Source: an uncultured bacterium | Lineage (GTDB): Bacteria; Cyanobacteriota; Vampirovibrionia; Gastranaerophilales; Gastranaerophilaceae | Assembly: GCA_902803165.1 (NCBI GenBank) | Contig: CADCOS010000087.1 | Coordinates: 1-35,864, forward strand | Direction: 5' to 3' | DNA: 35,864 bases | In this document: piece after piece, positions 22,906 to 35,651 of the stretch | Position numbering within the stretch: the first letter of the stretch is position 1 | Layout: each line of letters begins with the position of its first letter | The notes under the pieces: model-generated | What the model was told of the DNA's origin: nothing | The model's database searches: none | Seen by the model: only the letters and a program-made list of their open reading frames with translations | Program-made: the position numbers and the translations under genes

Positions 22906-24198
22906 CTACTTAATTTTTACCGTATTATTTTCAAACAAGAATTGAGTAACTTTTTCGTTCAAAGCTTGCTGAGAAAGTGCATTAAATACCCCCGGATTTC
23001 CTGAAAGCTGCTTAATCATATCAGCAGGATTCATTTGGTACATTCTGGAAAGCTCGGATAATTTCGCACCGAAATCCGCTTGAGAAACCGTAATATTTTC
23101 TGCTTTAGCAATTTTATCAATTACAAGTGAGTTTTTAACTCTTACAGCGGCATCTTCTTTCAAATCTTTAACGATATTGTCATAGCCTTGTGCCTCAAGA
23201 GCTTGTTCCCAAGTGAAACCTTGCATTTGAAGTTTTTGTTTGTATTCTTCAACCAGCAAATCTGTTTCTCTGTCAATCATTGATTGTTGTATTTCAACTT
23301 TAACACCTTCCACAACTTTGTCAAATATAGCTTTTTCGGAATTTGTTCTGTCAATATCTTCTTTTTGTTTATCCAAATAAGATTGAATATCAGCTTTTAA
23401 TTCATCAACATTTTTGAAATGTCCTACTTTTTGAGCAAATTCATCATTTAATTCAGGTAAAACTTTCTTTTTAATTTCATTAATTTTGCATTTGAATGTT
23501 GCCGGCTGACCTGCAAGTTTCTTTTCGTGGTATTCTTCAGGGAACTTAACTTCTATTTCAAATTCTTCGCCCAGAGGTCTCCCTACGAGCTGTTCTGCGA
23601 ATCCAGGAATAAAGCTTGAATTACCTAAATCAAGGGTATAGTTTTTGGCATCTCCGTGTTCAATTTTTTCACCGTTAGCAAATCCTTCAAAGTCAAAAAC
23701 AATAATATCTTTGTCTTCGGTATTTCTGTCCGTAACCAAAACGGTAGTGGCAGATTGTTCAAGCAAGTTGTCTATTGATTTTTGCATAGAATCTTCAGGT
23801 GTTTTGTAGCCTTCAACCTCTACTGTTAAACCTTTGTAATCACCCAAAGTTACTTCCGGACGTAGTTCGATTTTTGCAGTTATTTTCATATCTTCGCCGA
23901 TTTTGTAATCATAAGATTCAACGTACGGTTGGGTTACGATATCAAAATTATTAGATTTAATTACTTCTGCAAACAACTTAGGAAGAGCGGATTCGAGAGC
24001 TTCATGTTTAATTCTTTCTTCTCCGATATGTTGTTCTACAATATTTCTGGGTGCTTTGCCTTTTCTAAACCCGGGAATATTTACATATTGCGCTAATTTT
24101 TTAGCCGCATTGTTATAATAATCTACTGCATCTTTTGCAGGTACTTCAATTTCAACCTTTACAATGTTTTCAGGAAGTTTTTCAATCTTAGTTTCCAT
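22906..24198 (-). CDS. tig: Trigger factor (ribosome-associated chaperone, PPIase)
   Basis: Trigger factor binds at the ribosome exit tunnel and folds nascent chains. From the start chosen at 24198 (preceded by GAAGGGG) the protein is 430 aa, the family norm; an upstream in-frame ATG would add 24 hydrophobic residues with no binding site. It has the ribosome-binding signature GFRKGKAPRNIVEQHIGEER, an FKBP-type PPIase domain (about 150-240; DKDIIVFDFEGFANGEKIEH, FIPGFAEQLVGRPLGEEFEI) and a helical C-terminal domain (ELNDEFAQKVGHFKNVDELK...). A -10-like TATACT is present at 24249-24244. The gene ends at a good terminator. clpP and clpX, often next to tig, are not here. Confidence 0.96.
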   Translation of the reverse strand: METKIEKLPENIVKVEIEVPAKDAVDYYNNAAKKLAQYVNIPGFRKGKAPRNIVEQHIGEERIKHEALESALPKLFAEVIKSNNFDIVTQPYVESYDYKIGEDMKITAKIELRPEVTLGDYKGLTVEVEGYKTPEDSMQKSIDNLLEQSATTVLVTDRNTEDKDIIVFDFEGFANGEKIEHGDAKNYTLDLGNSSFIPGFAEQLVGRPLGEEFEIEVKFPEEYHEKKLAGQPATFKCKINEIKKKVLPELNDEFAQKVGHFKNVDELKADIQSYLDKQKEDIDRTNSEKAIFDKVVEGVKVEIQQSMIDRETDLLVEEYKQKLQMQGFTWEQALEAQGYDNIVKDLKEDAAVRVKNSLVIDKIAKAENITVSQADFGAKLSELSRMYQMNPADMIKQLSGNPGVFNALSQQALNEKVTQFLFENNTVKIK

Positions 24199-24303
24199 AA
24201 TTATCCCCTTCGTAATAAAAATATATACTAAACTATGTACAAGAGTATAATAAACATGTGTATTTTGCAAGGAAAAGTGATTTTGATAGAGATTAGGTGA
24301 TTA

Positions 24304-24525
24304 GGTGACCAGGTGATATTCCGTCATTCTGAGGGAGTGAAACGACCGAAGAATTCAGTCAATTAAATGGAAAATTGAAAATGGAAAGTGGAAAATTGGG
24401 TGATCAAGTGATCAGGTAATCAGGTGATATTCCGTCATTCTGAGGGAGTGAAACGACCGAAGAATCCAGTCAATTAAATGGAAAATGGAAAATGGAAAGT
24501 GGAAAATTGGGTGAACAGGTGATCA
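24304..24525 (+). repeat. Recent 111-bp tandem duplication containing a GTCATTCT palindromic unit
   Basis: Two head-to-tail copies, 24304-24414 and 24415-24525, differ at about 6 of 111 positions by eye. Each contains 8-bp GTGATCA-type units, then a GTCATTCTGAGGG...GAAGAAT(T/C)CAGTC unit (24323-24360 and 24434-24471) with the ATTCT/AGAAT stem, then a purine-rich TGGAAAATGGAAA-like tract. It lies in the tig upstream gap. I see no coding sequence between 24199 and 24955. Confidence 0.9.
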
Positions 24526-24573
24526 AGTGATCAAGTGATCAAGTGATTAGGTGATTGGGTGATAGGGTGATAG
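24510..24573 (+). repeat. Eight tandem copies of an 8-bp unit, RGTGATNR
   Basis: The units read GGTGAACA, GGTGATCA, AGTGATCA, AGTGATCA, AGTGATTA, GGTGATTG, GGTGATAG, GGTGATAG, in exact 8-bp register. Shorter runs of the same unit occur at 24295-24318, 24398-24429, 25858-25913 and 25960-25991. In several places it directly abuts the GTCATTCT palindromic unit. Confidence 0.92.
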
Positions 24574-24647
24574 GGGAATTATAACCTTTTCCCTCTCCCG
24601 CATTACTGTCCATGATAATTTTTGAAAAGTACAAATATGCAAAAACA

Positions 24648-24855
24648 TGTCATCCCGAAAACGTAGAAAATTTGTCCGAAAGGACTTAATTTTCAAGCTG
24701 TTCGGGATCTTACCCGCTTGATATATGATACTTTGCCGGTAAGATTCTGAAATACGCCTTAATTTAATGTCCCGACACTAAAATCAATGTCTGTACTTGA
24801 CGGCTATTCAGAATGACAGCACATTTATAGTAAATTTATTTTGGACAGTAGTGCC
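24648..24855. repeat. Dispersed repeat, copy B (171-bp inverted-end core)
   Basis: This is the second copy of the element at 16619-16826, in the same orientation and of identical length. The core 24648-24818 has TGTCATCCCGAA and TTCAGAATGACA ends, the ATCCCGAA/TTCGGGAT and ATTCTGAA/TTCAGAAT stems are conserved, and the junction reads ATCTTACCCG...CGGTAAGAT, where copy A has substitutions. Confidence 0.88.
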
Positions 24856-24901
24856 CTCTCCCGCAAAGGGGCTGTGATTGTGGTTTTATTTATAAAACAA
24901 A

Positions 24902-24927
24902 AGAGCCGAAATTTTATTTTCGACTCT
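24902..24927 (-). terminator. Terminator of the 229-aa hypothetical gene
   Basis: Stem AGAGCCGAAA (24902-24911) pairs with TTTCGACTCT (24918-24927), with one G-U wobble on the minus-strand RNA. It is followed on that strand by a TTTTGTTTT tract. It lies 28 nt past the stop codon. Confidence 0.75.
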
Positions 24928-24955
24928 ATGTTAGTAAATATAAGAACTATAGATT

Positions 24956-25645
24956 CTATACTGTTTCATTTTTTGGTTTGAACATCAATCCGATTAAAGC
25001 ACCGGCACCTACACCTGCTGCTGTAATCCAAGCCAGCTTGCCGCCTTTTATCTTGCCTTTTTCAAATAATGCTTTCAATTCGTCACAAATTTTACCTTTT
25101 TGTTCTTCGGTTGCTTTTTTTATAGCATCATCACGTGTACCGTTACTTTTTTCGAACGCTTCTTTTAATAATTCAGTTTCTTTCTTTCTGACTGCTCTTT
25201 GAGCTTTAGCTACAGCGTCACGTTCTGTTTTTATATCTTTTTTAGTATATTCTGTTGCGCCTAATTCATTTATTTTTGCATTCAATTTCGACTTCGCTTC
25301 ATTTAATTCAGTCAATTCTTTAGCATCTGCAGGTAAAATAGTATTTCTCTTATCAACAATATATTTATTTAATTGTGTTTCATAATCAGTACCTGCTTTG
25401 TTGATTGCTGTTCTTGCTGTTTCCAAATCTGTAACAGCTTTTTCAGATATACCTTCATTGTTTTTTACAAAATCATCTTTTGATTCTTTCAAAATATCTT
25501 CAAAGCTTGCATATTTACCTTTTTCTCTAGCCCATTGAGGCCCCCAATTGCTTAATGCTGCGGCTGTACCGCCGCCTACTACCGCTCCGCCTAATGCATA
25601 AGGTGCTGCTGATGGTTGTTGTTGAACGATGTAATCTTCTGACAT
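24956..25645 (-). CDS. Hypothetical protein: coiled coil between two Gly/Ala-rich hydrophobic ends
   Basis: A 229-aa protein, not recognised. TAGGAG lies 10 nt before the ATG. Residues about 16-32 (YALGGAVVGGGTAAALSNWG) and 205-222 (LAWITAAGVGAGALIGLMF) are glycine-zipper-like hydrophobic segments able to insert in a membrane. The roughly 160 residues between them are charged helix with coiled-coil character (KTERDAVAKAQRAVRKKETE). There is no cleavable signal peptide. It may be a membrane-tethered spacer or scaffold; a pore-forming role cannot be excluded. It has its own terminator. Confidence 0.72.
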   Translation of the reverse strand: MSEDYIVQQQPSAAPYALGGAVVGGGTAAALSNWGPQWAREKGKYASFEDILKESKDDFVKNNEGISEKAVTDLETARTAINKAGTDYETQLNKYIVDKRNTILPADAKELTELNEAKSKLNAKINELGATEYTKKDIKTERDAVAKAQRAVRKKETELLKEAFEKSNGTRDDAIKKATEEQKGKICDELKALFEKGKIKGGKLAWITAAGVGAGALIGLMFKPKNETV

Positions 25646-25857
25646 AATTAAATGCTCCTATATTTACTTACTATCTTTATTTTCTAAAATAAATCCATTT
25701 TCCCTGTAACTATGCTTACAAACATGTAAACGTTTTAAAAAAATAAAAATTGCCATGTTAAAAAGTTAAAATTTTCATTAAAACGCTAAAAATATTGTAT
25801 ACAAAGCATTTTGGCGACACAAGTCATCTTCACAAAACTTTACAATGTGTTAAAAAT
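25646..25857. other. AT-rich gap without a gene
   Basis: This is the upstream region of the 229-aa gene. It contains the palindromes ACATGT and TTGTATACAA and several TTTACA/TGTAAA words that could serve as -35 elements, but no promoter I can call with confidence, and no coding sequence. Confidence 0.5.
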
Positions 25858-25913
25858 AGGTGATTAGGTAATTAAGTGATCAGGTGATCAAGTGATCAAG
25901 TGATCAGGTGATA
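25858..25913 (+). repeat. Seven tandem copies of the 8-bp GTGATCA-type unit
   Basis: Units in register are AGGTGATT, AGGTAATT, AAGTGATC, AGGTGATC, AAGTGATC, AAGTGATC and AGGTGATA. The array runs directly into a GTTATTCTGAG palindromic unit at 25918, the same junction sequence (GTGATATTC) seen at 24311-24323 and 24422-24434. Confidence 0.9.
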
Positions 25914-25917
25914 TTCT

Positions 25918-25991
25918 GTTATTCTGAGTGAATAAGACGACCAAAGAATCCACTGAATAAGGTAATCAGGTGACCATGTGATTGGGTGAAT
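25918..25991 (+). repeat. Degenerate GTCATTCT unit followed by four 8-bp units
   Basis: GTTATTCTGAG...CAAAGAATCCACT (25918-25953) is a diverged copy of the GTCATTCT...AGAATCCAG unit. It is followed at 25960-25991 by AGGTAATC, AGGTGACC, ATGTGATT and GGGTGAAT. Confidence 0.75.
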
Positions 25992-26008
25992 AGGAAAATT
26001 GAAAAAAG

Positions 26009-26079
26009 CTGGATCCTTCGCCTGCGACTCAGGATGACACATTCCGTCATTCTGAGTCTCGAAGAGACGAAGAATCCAG
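26009..26079. repeat. Palindromic repeat P1 downstream of the GIY-YIG gene
   Basis: A 71-bp element made of two half-units facing outward: CTGGATCCTTCG...AGGATGAC (26009-26038) and GTCATTCTGAG...AGAATCCAG (26046-26079). Each half has its own short stem (ATCCT/AGGAT and ATTCT/AGAAT), and the second contains an inner GTCTC-GAA-GAGAC stem. It differs from P2 (26397-26467) at only 3 positions by eye. The nuclease stop codon begins at the next base, 26080-26082. Confidence 0.92.
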
Positions 26080-26373
26080 TTAAATTATTTCATAGTACAA
26101 ATCTTTCCATTCAGGATTAATTGACTCTATTAAATCTAATTTATACTTCCTAATTTTACCTTTAATCTGTTTCTCTCTTATAATAGCTTGTTCTATCGTA
26201 TCAAAAGCTTCAAAGTATCCTAATTTATCAGTTCCGTATTTATTGCTAAATCCTTCGACGAATTTATTTTTATGTTCCAAAACCCGTTTCGAAATGTTTG
26301 AGGTTACTCCCACATACAGGGTTCCATTTCTTTTGTTAAACATTATATATGTGTAGCCTTTTTTCTCTTTCAT
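26080..26373 (-). CDS. Small GIY-YIG family endonuclease bracketed by palindromic repeats
   Basis: A 97-aa single-domain GIY-YIG nuclease of the UPF0213/YhbQ-like type. The two signature tyrosine strands are YTYIMFNKRNGTLYVGVTSN, followed by the catalytic Arg region ISKRVLEHKNKFVEGFSNKY, the central GYFEAFDTIEQAIIREKQIK, and the C-terminal INPEWKDLY with the metal-binding Glu. I start at 26373 (MKEKKGYTY); an in-frame ATG at 26430 would add 19 residues (MCHPEPQAKDPD...) that are simply translation of the repeat P2. No Shine-Dalgarno is evident; TGTTATATT, an extended -10-like sequence, lies just upstream, so the message may be nearly leaderless. The gene fits between two direct copies of the palindromic repeat, suggesting a mobile unit. 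Confidence 0.85.
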   Translation of the reverse strand: MKEKKGYTYIMFNKRNGTLYVGVTSNISKRVLEHKNKFVEGFSNKYGTDKLGYFEAFDTIEQAIIREKQIKGKIRKYKLDLIESINPEWKDLYYEII

Positions 26374-26396
26374 AGTAAAAATATAACATAAAATAT

Positions 26397-26467
26397 CTGG
26401 ATCCTTCGCCTGCGGCTCAGGATGACACATTTCGTCATTCTGAGTCTCGAAGTGACGAAGAATCCAG
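26397..26467. repeat. Palindromic repeat P2 upstream of the GIY-YIG gene
   Basis: This is the second 71-bp copy, in direct orientation with P1: CTGGATCC...AGGATGAC (26397-26426) and GTCATTCT...AGAATCCAG (26434-26467). P1 and P2 are spaced 388 bp apart and enclose the nuclease gene and almost nothing else. Confidence 0.92.
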
Positions 26468-26472
26468 TCTCT

Positions 26473-26502
26473 CTGGATCCTTCGCCTGCGGCTCAGGATG
26501 AC
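26473..26502. repeat. Third half-copy of the palindromic repeat
   Basis: CTGGATCCTTCG...AGGATGAC, 30 bp, matches the left half of P2 (26397-26426) exactly by eye, 5 bp after P2. It is a solitary half-unit. Confidence 0.9.
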
Positions 26503-26524
26503 GGAAAAAGACTTTGATATATTA

Positions 26525-33380: not shown

Positions 33381-35651
33381 ATGAAAAAGTTTGCGTACAC
33401 TTTGGCAGAAGTTTTAATTGCCGTATGTATAGTTGGAGTTATATCCGCAATTTTGATAGGGCTGCTTAACAAGGCTGCCCCCGATACTAATAAAATCAGA
33501 TATTTAAAAACTTATGATGCTTTAACAAAAGCTGTCAAGACTATGTCAAAGAATTCTTCTTTGTACTCTGAAATGTCAGAGGTCGTGATACCTGATGATT
33601 TAGGAAATCCGCTTTATAAAATTACGTTAAATCTGCATAAATATCCGTTAATTGACACTAACAAACCCACAAATCCTGATTTTCAGGATGATATATATTC
33701 AGGCGCTCCGAAATTCGGTAATTTATTAAAAGTTGCTTTAAACGGAAAAACTCCGGATTCAGGTGTTAATTGTGATTTTGTAACTCCTGATAATGCACGA
33801 TGGACTGTTAATACTGTGAGCGGAATGGACGATGATTATCCGCTAATGGTAGATGAAAATGGCGTTCATGGCATTTACAAATTTTATTCAAAAATTACAG
33901 TTGATATAAACGGAGCACAGAAACCTAATCAGTCATATAATCAAAACATGCAAAATACGCCGGATATATTTATGTTTGGTGTAACAGCTAACGGTAAAGT
34001 GAAAGCGTTGGATGCTTATGGCAGGCACTATTTAAAAACAAGACGTTCACTTTCCCGTAAAAAGGTATCTTTAACAAACGAAAATTCTAATAGTATAAAC
34101 ATTAACAGTCTCGGTGTAGATATTGATATAAATATATTAAAACCTTCTTTGACAGTATACAAAAATGATGATGATGACGAGGACAATGATGACCAAAACG
34201 GTGATGATCCGAACGGCGATGATCCGAATGGTGATGATCCGAATGGCGATGATCCGAATGGTGATGATCCGAACGGTGATGATCCGAATGGTGATGATCC
34301 GAATGGCGGATTTCTGCCTATCATACACAAACCGGGATGGTGGAAGCCATGGAACGGTCATAATCCGCCGCCAATAAATCCTAATTTAATTAATAATGAC
34401 GGTGAATGGAGTAATGTGAGCGGTAGTGACTTGGCGGTCCCGTCAGTTGCACAAATGACGCAAGCATTATCAAATTCTCACAATACAGCGGTTTTATTGT
34501 CGAGCAATTGGTACGAAGGAGACGATTTGGATGATGCAGGTACTTTCAGAAGTGCCGCGAAAGCTACGTTGAATAGCATAATAGATGAATTATATGAAGA
34601 TATATTAGGATATTACTTGAATAGTTTTGTGTCAGAATCTGTAAAAAGTCAGCTAACGGTAAATCATGATGTAATTGAAAATGAAGTATTTAAGGCAAGG
34701 CTTGAATATACAAAAGAAACTCTAAAACGCTTTTATGCGAAGGTAATTGACAGTGCGGAACTTCCGTATTGTATGGATACACCTCATTTTACAGGCGAAT
34801 ATGAGAGCTCCAATTATAGTTTTTATGATTATGATTATATACAAAGGTCGAGAACTGATAAATGGTATAGTGCTAATTTGGAATTCTATGGAACAGGTGA
34901 TTTGGATGCATTGGAAAATTGGCTTCTAAATGGCGTTATGCCGGCAAGTACTCCGCGTAGCGGTATAGTTTCGTCAGGCATTGCTGTCGGACAATCAGGC
35001 TTAATATTGCTAACTGATTCAGAGAGATGGTTTTGGTTTGAGGATTGCCATGCAAAATACGCAATAAACAAAAATCAGTTAAAACAAAGATTTATGGATT
35101 TTTATTCATCTTATGCTATGACCAGAGATTATTCAAACAATTTCTGGGTGCAAAATGGTGATCCGAGCGATATCTCTTCTCAGTTTACAGGCATGTACAG
35201 ATTAGGAAATGACGGTAACGGTTCGGGTGACTATTATTATGAATGTTCAAATGCTGTATCTGACGCTAAATCTGCTATGAATACTCTTTTAAACAATATG
35301 AAAACAAAATTGACTGAAGCCGGATATCCGGAAGCTGCAGTTACATCTGCAGTAAGCAACACAAAAACATATTATGATACATTACTAACGCGAATTGGTA
35401 CAATGAACGGTACAATAGAGGACTATAGTAGTGGTCAGTATGTAAAAACGATATCGGGTGTTACTCCGACAGCTACGTTTGGAGCTATTGTGTACGGTAA
35501 AGTTAAAACATGTGATAGCAAAAGCGGTGTCGGAACAGGAACATCAGGAATTTTGGTCAGATGTTCTACAAATTGGAATACATCATGGCGAATTGATGTT
35601 GATAAATCCAAAGTATTTAACAGAGTATTGCAAAAAATAGGTGGTTCATAG
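33381..35651 (+). CDS. Giant type IV pilin-like surface protein
   Basis: A 756-aa protein. AAAGGAG lies 4 nt before the ATG at 33381; an upstream ATG at 33330 lacks a site. The N-terminus MKKFAYTLAEVLIAVCIVGV is a class III prepilin leader: short basic leader, then Y-T-L-A-E with the Glu at +5 and a hydrophobic helix. The residue before the predicted cut is Ala, not the usual Gly. Residues about 35-260 are a pilin-like domain (RYLKTYDALTKAVKTMSK...). Then come an acidic run, seven NGDDP repeats (273-307), a Trp/Pro-rich stretch (HKPGWWKPWNGHNPPP), and about 430 residues of unknown fold with several Cys (YCMDTPH, FEDCHAKY, YECSNA, KTCDSK, VRCSTN). Probably a pseudopilin-anchored adhesin or minor pilin. 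Confidence 0.82.
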   Translation: MKKFAYTLAEVLIAVCIVGVISAILIGLLNKAAPDTNKIRYLKTYDALTKAVKTMSKNSSLYSEMSEVVIPDDLGNPLYKITLNLHKYPLIDTNKPTNPDFQDDIYSGAPKFGNLLKVALNGKTPDSGVNCDFVTPDNARWTVNTVSGMDDDYPLMVDENGVHGIYKFYSKITVDINGAQKPNQSYNQNMQNTPDIFMFGVTANGKVKALDAYGRHYLKTRRSLSRKKVSLTNENSNSININSLGVDIDINILKPSLTVYKNDDDDEDNDDQNGDDPNGDDPNGDDPNGDDPNGDDPNGDDPNGDDPNGGFLPIIHKPGWWKPWNGHNPPPINPNLINNDGEWSNVSGSDLAVPSVAQMTQALSNSHNTAVLLSSNWYEGDDLDDAGTFRSAAKATLNSIIDELYEDILGYYLNSFVSESVKSQLTVNHDVIENEVFKARLEYTKETLKRFYAKVIDSAELPYCMDTPHFTGEYESSNYSFYDYDYIQRSRTDKWYSANLEFYGTGDLDALENWLLNGVMPASTPRSGIVSSGIAVGQSGLILLTDSERWFWFEDCHAKYAINKNQLKQRFMDFYSSYAMTRDYSNNFWVQNGDPSDISSQFTGMYRLGNDGNGSGDYYYECSNAVSDAKSAMNTLLNNMKTKLTEAGYPEAAVTSAVSNTKTYYDTLLTRIGTMNGTIEDYSSGQYVKTISGVTPTATFGAIVYGKVKTCDSKSGVGTGTSGILVRCSTNWNTSWRIDVDKSKVFNRVLQKIGGS
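34197..34301 (+). repeat. Seven in-frame 15-bp repeats encoding NGDDP
   Basis: The unit AAYGGYGATGATCCG is repeated seven times in exact register, encoding Asn-Gly-Asp-Asp-Pro, preceded by an Asp/Asn-rich run and followed by a partial unit (NGG). Differences are only third-position C/T changes, so the array is recent or homogenised. Because the unit is a multiple of three, copy-number change lengthens or shortens the linker without a frameshift. Confidence 0.95.

Follow-up and report, generated by a model that had tools for sequence, protein, structure and literature searches.

Cyanobacteria and their relatives commonly carry short tandem arrays, for which we know of no accepted origin. The question of what such arrays are is raised by a cluster of intergenic repeats in a stretch of 35,864 nt (the window), in which runs of an 8-bp unit are repeatedly fused to a palindrome. 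A sequence-only reading had proposed that array and palindrome form one compound element, the array perhaps having grown by slippage or serving as an array of protein-binding sites. The window corresponds to contig C87 of a Gastranaerophilales MAG (1.78 Mb, 177 contigs, completeness 96%), and its LysS is 93% identical to that of Candidatus Gastranaerophilales MAGs from rumen and horse gut. The repeat cluster is bordered by three genes on the minus strand, i.e. tig, which encodes trigger factor (22906-24270), an unnamed ORF (24956-25645), and a gene for a solitary GIY-YIG endonuclease (26080-26430).

The repeat cluster and its octamer unit

All five 8-bp runs that had been noted are present, at 24297-24320, 24400-24431, 24511-24574, 25860-25915, and 25962-25993, and the junction GTGATATTC(C/T)G is found in three copies, at 24313, 24424, and 25908. 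The first array (GTGATTAG GTGACCAG GTGATATT, plus strand, as are the other arrays and REPs up to 25993) ends in the junction GTGATATTCC and is followed by a CGTC-tagged REP-like palindrome of subtype P1 (CGTCATTCTGAGGGAGTGAAACGACCGAAGAATTCAG, 24322-24358) and by a 7-bp array of the TGGAAAA/TTGAAAA type (24365-24396, TRF period 7). Next come the second array (GTGATCAA GTGATCAG GTAATCAG GTGATATT, with junction), a second copy of P1 (24433-24469), which reflects a 111-bp direct duplication of this first block (94% identical), and a second TGGAAAA array (24476-24507). The third array is the longest of the window, with eight units, and has no palindrome downstream. The fourth, with seven units, ends in the junction GTGATATTCT and precedes a degenerate REP (TGTTATTCTGAGTGAATAAGACGACCAAAGAATCCA, 25917-25953), which is followed by the degenerate fifth array (GTAATCAG GTGACCAT GTGATTGG GTGAATAG). 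The GIY-YIG gene has on either side a 79-nt direct repeat of a REP dimer, the two copies being 94% identical. To its left is a tag-to-tag dimer at 26010-26078 (TGTC REP on the minus strand, CGTC REP on the plus strand), and to its right are a dimer and a third REP at 26398-26503.

Two further repeats were seen in the window. An inverted repeat at 24600-24854, ACTGTCCATGATAAT...GGACAGTAGTGC with arms 209 nt apart, encloses GTCATCCCGAA...AGAATGACAG and resembles another dispersed repeat from the flanks of genomes G015 and G027. At 34200-34306, seven copies of the 15-bp tandem repeat GGTGATGATCCGAAT form a coding repeat within a 773-aa ORF.

The five runs are far above chance expectation. With up to three mismatches, the array pattern has 86 matches in the genome versus none for a reversed-pattern control; the strict pattern has 11 versus none. 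Requiring at least three units, we counted 59 arrays (268 units; longest array, 11 units) in 36 clusters, and these are lower bounds because many clusters sit at contig ends. All but one of the clusters are intergenic (35 of 36), and the exception touches the end of an ORF.

The unit had been described as RGTGATNR in strict register; the 8-bp runs are there, but this pattern is too strict, and the 209 internal units are better represented by GTGA-NN-A-R. Positions 1 to 4 are GTGA (96-100% per position), position 7 is A in 89%, and position 8 is G, A or T. Positions 5 and 6 are nearly always TC (59), CC (53), TT (48) or AT (40); AC was seen once and CT three times, versus 22 and 25 expected under independence. 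The array unit AGGTGATC might matter as a complement of the 3′ end of 16S rRNA. The palindrome TGATCA with its GATC, regarded earlier as the core of the unit, occurs in only 54 of the 209 units (26%) and is absent from the arrays of the sister species G015 and G016. It is not a defining feature, because it characterizes a minority of units and is missing in some sister species. A cluster of Dam sites would require GATC in each unit and is not supported by these counts.

The suggested protein-binding array with an 8-bp footprint fares no better. A DNA- or RNA-binding protein reading GTGA at each step is a highly improbable explanation: periods of 7, 8 and 9 bp, and even units lacking GTGA, occupy equivalent positions, GATC is not conserved, the spacer is limited to four dinucleotides instead of being free, and the arrays are found upstream and downstream of genes and in operon gaps without polarity to the genes. 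The points that speak for such a protein are the near-invariant GTGA next to varying spacer positions and the proposal that TAACTGA heptamers of Beggiatoaceae are regulator sites (PMC4679880).

Slippage can account for array growth at most in part. Adjacent units agree at 2.26 of the 4 variable positions, compared with 2.07 for random units drawn from all arrays (p 0.006; p 0.05 when units are shuffled within arrays), and units are shared genome-wide. As sole origin of the arrays, slippage was rejected on this comparison. So the arrays are not fresh slippage products, and a small genome-wide set of unit types is in use. The set is specific to the species, with TT/CT at positions 5 and 6 in G015, TT/GC/AC in G016, and TC/CT/TT/CC in G027. 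The weak similarity of neighbours and the small species-specific set imply copying from locus to locus, of single units or of blocks. Units would be exchanged by duplication, recombination or gene conversion, with some local slipping.

These comparisons also bear on a neutral explanation, in which the arrays are STRR-like repeats that originated by slippage, were co-amplified with the REPs by chance and constitute neither an element nor a function, while the IVP genes described below merely tolerate or acquire them. We regard this as rather unlikely. The species-specific units, the variable copy number, the intergenic location, and the lack of a conserved position relative to genes are all compatible with it, and similar heptamer repeats have been described from cyanobacteria as well as from other bacteria (PMC4679880, PMC4692102). 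With cyanobacterial STRRs and the TAACTGA arrays, the arrays described here have in common that they are short, degenerate, intergenic, and present in many copies (PMC4679880); they differ in their 8-bp GTGA unit, in their linkage to REPs and IVP arms, and in having no clear start-codon bias. In addition to the low similarity of neighbouring units, slippage alone would lead one to expect neither the fixed polarity and junction with REPs nor the inward bias and the inverted complementary IVP arms of matched period that are reported below.

Junctions and the intergenic mosaic

A whole-genome search for the junction GTGATATTCYGTCATTCTGAG with up to three mismatches yielded 15 matches, on contigs C17, C23, C46, C55, C59, C65 (a doubtful match), C87, C91, C126, C152, and C175. 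The constant form GTGATATTC(C/T)G-GTCATTCT is present on about ten contigs besides that of the window, and therefore the 111-bp duplication does not account for the shared junctions. In the named GTDB collection, from which near relatives may be missing, the exact junction has no match. The junction varies with the subtype of the palindrome, i.e. GTGATATTCC precedes GTCATTCTGAG and GTGATTCC precedes GTCATTGCGAG. Polarity is fixed as well: when an array and its nearest REP are no more than 60 bp apart, they are on the same strand in 34 cases and on opposite strands in two (17 contigs).

The compound element that had been proposed is thus real to the extent that the two modules are repeatedly joined, on the same strand and with a constant junction. 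It is not obligatory, since no REP lies within 400 bp of 16 of the 59 arrays, examples being those of the spc ribosomal operon (L6, S8, L18; C112) and of the fliF-fliG gap (C102), a site that carries arrays in G025, too. In the window's own genome, the arrays are therefore not mostly away from palindromes (43 of 59 within 400 bp), whereas in sister species they almost always are. Octamer arrays of sister species adjoin other modules: G027 has the constant arrangement ...GTGCGTTAATGAA-[array]-GAATTTATAACT..., and G015 has a GAAATTGTCCCCTCCCC... repeat.

Among 50 REP-like units identified by a loose rule in the retrieved regions, 26 come directly after an octamer array, 11 after a TGGAAAA heptamer array, and seven after another REP, tag-to-tag; these proportions are biased, as the regions were chosen via array, junction, and REP searches, of which the array and strict REP searches were genome-wide. 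The block array-REP-CCAGTCAATTAA-heptamer array, of the 111-bp type, recurs on many contigs with 77-99% identity. The repeat GTGATTATGTGATTTCGCTTCGCTCCGTGATTATGTGACCGTGAACTG is dispersed and recurs next to arrays of the same genome (L262:3880-3921, L261:2968-3009, L252:493-534).

Distinct repeat modules with recurrent junctions in intergenic DNA place the cluster among mosaic intergenic elements of the BIME/NIME type. The enterobacterial BIMEs and the neisserial mosaics likewise consist of modules in fixed junctions that are shuffled among intergenic sites; here, in another organism and with other sequences, the modules include tandem arrays of 7-8 bp. The BrickBuilt MITE of Porphyromonas gingivalis (PMC4596501) is another dispersed intergenic combination of a tandem array with small inverted repeats. 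It has 23-bp units within one element with leader and tail, in contrast to 8-bp arrays that lie outside the palindrome and also occur independently.

The tract adjoining tig is recognizable in close relatives, and the empty-site comparison was based on it. None of the relatives that show this flank (27 other genomes searched) has such arrays or REPs upstream of tig, and therefore the repeats are a lineage-specific gain in the window's genome. Synteny at lysS is not conserved among relatives and hence was unusable for this comparison.

CGTC-tagged REPs and solitary GIY-YIG genes

The palindromes P1 to P4 start with the tag CGTC or TGTC, have a stem opening with AT, and end in the tail CCA (CGTCAT...ATCCA), features that they share with CGTC-tagged REPs, whose tag may be CGTC, TGTC or CCTC. 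Family stems usually have 8-9 bp and loops of 4-5 nt. P3, at 26044-26080, has a stem of 5+5 bp around GA/GA mismatches and a loop of 3, and the 5-bp outer stem of P1 is likewise broken by GA mismatches, with no significant fold on its own (z -0.2). A strict scan for CGTC REPs with stems of at least 7 bp found none in the window because the GA/GA mismatches break the stem, and a 5-bp outer stem was used as detection rule instead. Strict REP copies number 26 genome-wide, dispersed and intergenic.

The CGTC-tagged REPs surveyed in 2013 (Di Nocera et al. 2013, PMC3733652) share with those described here the CGTC/TGTC start, the AT-opening stem, the CCA tail, the intergenic location, the occurrence of dimers and of multiple subtypes per genome, and the interleaving with other repeats, as in Neisseria. 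Differences are the short interrupted stem of P1, the joining to octamer arrays, and the tag-to-tag dimers, which are usual here and rare in that survey. The survey reported no dedicated transposase and no associated enzyme gene (PMC3733652), whereas GIY-YIG genes lie between REPs here. A Y1 tyrosine transposase (PF01797) has no match in the window's genome (96% complete), and dispersal of the REPs by a RAYT was accordingly rejected.

We compared the REP flanks of GIY-YIG loci, placed by known match coordinates. Among 39 solitary loci of the order, 12 have at least one strict REP no more than 500 bp away, six of them on both sides; within the same genus, nine of 13 are REP-flanked. The corresponding value for UvrC GIY-YIG loci is 0 of 11, and random windows have strict REPs on one side in 0.4% and on both sides in 0 of 20000 cases. 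All loci are related and come from one order. As a lead, and not as a demonstration, the GIY-YIG protein of the window is a candidate enzyme for CGTC REPs. Searches of the open-access literature found no report that links GIY-YIG genes to CGTC REPs.

An array and a REP could also constitute a single mobile element of the MITE/BIME type, moved by a nuclease or transposase that acts on the REP, with the arrays as passengers and the adjoining GIY-YIG enzyme as candidate. The excess of REPs at solitary over UvrC loci, the location of the window's gene between near-identical REP dimers, and the negative search for a Y1 transposase would agree with this. We nevertheless regard it as improbable, given that 27 of the 39 solitary loci have no strict REP, that arrays have spread in species in which no REP adjoins them, and that an association among related loci of one order is not an activity.

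Arrays as arms of IVP genes

The segment that is homologous among arrays of G004, G015, and the window's genome is a gene for a 23S_rRNA_IVP protein (S23, four-helix bundle) bracketed by inverted arrays. We know of no function for S23/IVP proteins. Such genes were found in 31 of 65 genomes of the genus (about one per genome). In the window's genome, the IVP gene (G000:C25:3326-3631, PF05635, E 6e-36) has inverted GTGATCAN octamer arrays on both sides, with the same unit set as the window. Its arms pair with -42.5 kcal/mol (z -9.3), and in the RNA of the whole element the ends are paired, closing one long terminal stem (z -3.6). Complementary terminal repeats that close a stem were found for sister IVP loci, too. 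The assumption that G015:C4 and C25 represent one genomic site proved wrong; the alignment covers the IVP element, and the sites differ.

Arm pairing was compared over 75 nt on either side of the gene. The median z value of 31 IVP loci is -7.05, with 77% below -4, versus 0.05 and 0.7% for 150 control small ORFs of similar size. Five to seven of the 31 show little or no pairing of these flanks, in part owing to gene starts or additional ORFs that the comparison did not accommodate. The arm arrays are of the GTGA, GTTAATAAG or GGAAAAT type, and where both sides have clear arrays, the two arms nearly always have the same period, of 7, 8 or 9 bp (G030 and G029 are unclear). Both array types of the window serve as IVP arms, the heptamer type (GGAAAAT) in G067.

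These elements were not filed as rRNA intervening sequences (IVS), because they are not in 23S rRNA: 22 of 32 IVP loci are located between groES and groEL (within L400-L432, e.g. L403, L404, L401, and L425), a possible insertion hotspot. We sorted 21 groES-groEL elements by hand into six arm classes, and the IVP tree mostly unites the elements of one class, although some nodes are weakly supported. GroEL barely resolves the species. Arm class tracks the IVP tree, and hence the arms belong to the element. The groES-groEL site is probably a repeated target, the alternative being fast evolution of the arms in place.

In rRNA, S23 ORFs lie within intervening sequences with complementary ends that are cut by RNase III, and the Coxiella IVS carries tandem heptamers (GACAGAT) in its 5′ region, upstream of the ORF (PMC4990558). 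The IVP elements share the S23-family ORF inside complementary ends with this IVS, and tandem heptamers are found in Coxiella as well. They differ from 23S rRNA IVS in their location between protein genes, mostly groES and groEL, and in arm units and periods that vary by clade. Searches of the open-access literature found no account of S23 elements that have arrays as arms and lie in protein operons.

The window arrays have no inward-facing partner arm and no IVP ORF, and every one of them is on the plus strand, so they are not IVS-like elements themselves. On balance, we favour an origin of these arrays as solo IVS-like arms, lacking both the gene and the second arm, that were amplified together with the REPs into an intergenic mosaic. 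The three modules of the mosaic (octamer array, CGTC-tagged REP, TGGAAAA heptamer array) are joined in fixed polarity and would have been block-copied to many intergenic sites. The arrays would then most likely be arm copies of IVS-like elements and not protein-binding sites, and the inverted IVP arms pair into a long stem resembling the one at which RNase III cuts intervening sequences of 23S rRNA, so that they may be processed by RNase III, too. We favour solo arms because the window's genome and G015 use the same unit sets for arrays and for arms, and because arrays that have no gene share the inward bias: opposite-strand arrays no more than 700 bp apart face inward in 31 cases and outward in four (counts that are not independent).

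Several observations are at odds with the derivation from arms. Arrays far outnumber IVP genes, those of the window lie on one strand without an inverted partner, and some IVP loci have the poorly pairing flanks mentioned above. In G019, the dispersed arrays that were found are octamers, whereas the IVP arms are heptamers. In G016 (89% complete), no IVP gene was found, yet there are many arrays, inward pairs included. One such pair in G016 (C2:1489-1560, L394) apparently lies between rplK and rplA and has arms of different unit type.

More tentatively, free-standing S23/IVP genes could be the protein-coding portion of a mobile element of the IVS type. Such an element would insert into gaps of operons, with groES-groEL as hotspot, and would have short tandem arrays as interchangeable ends. 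The many 7-9 bp arrays dispersed in Gastranaerophilales might then be its solo ends, some of them captured by REPs.

Each IVP gene is enclosed by two arrays that match one another and differ by clade. This ties the arrays to S23/IVP proteins, and the link opens RNase III cleavage, mobility, and co-evolution of the arms to testing. For the CGTC-tagged REPs, the solitary GIY-YIG genes with REP flanks suggest a candidate enzyme.
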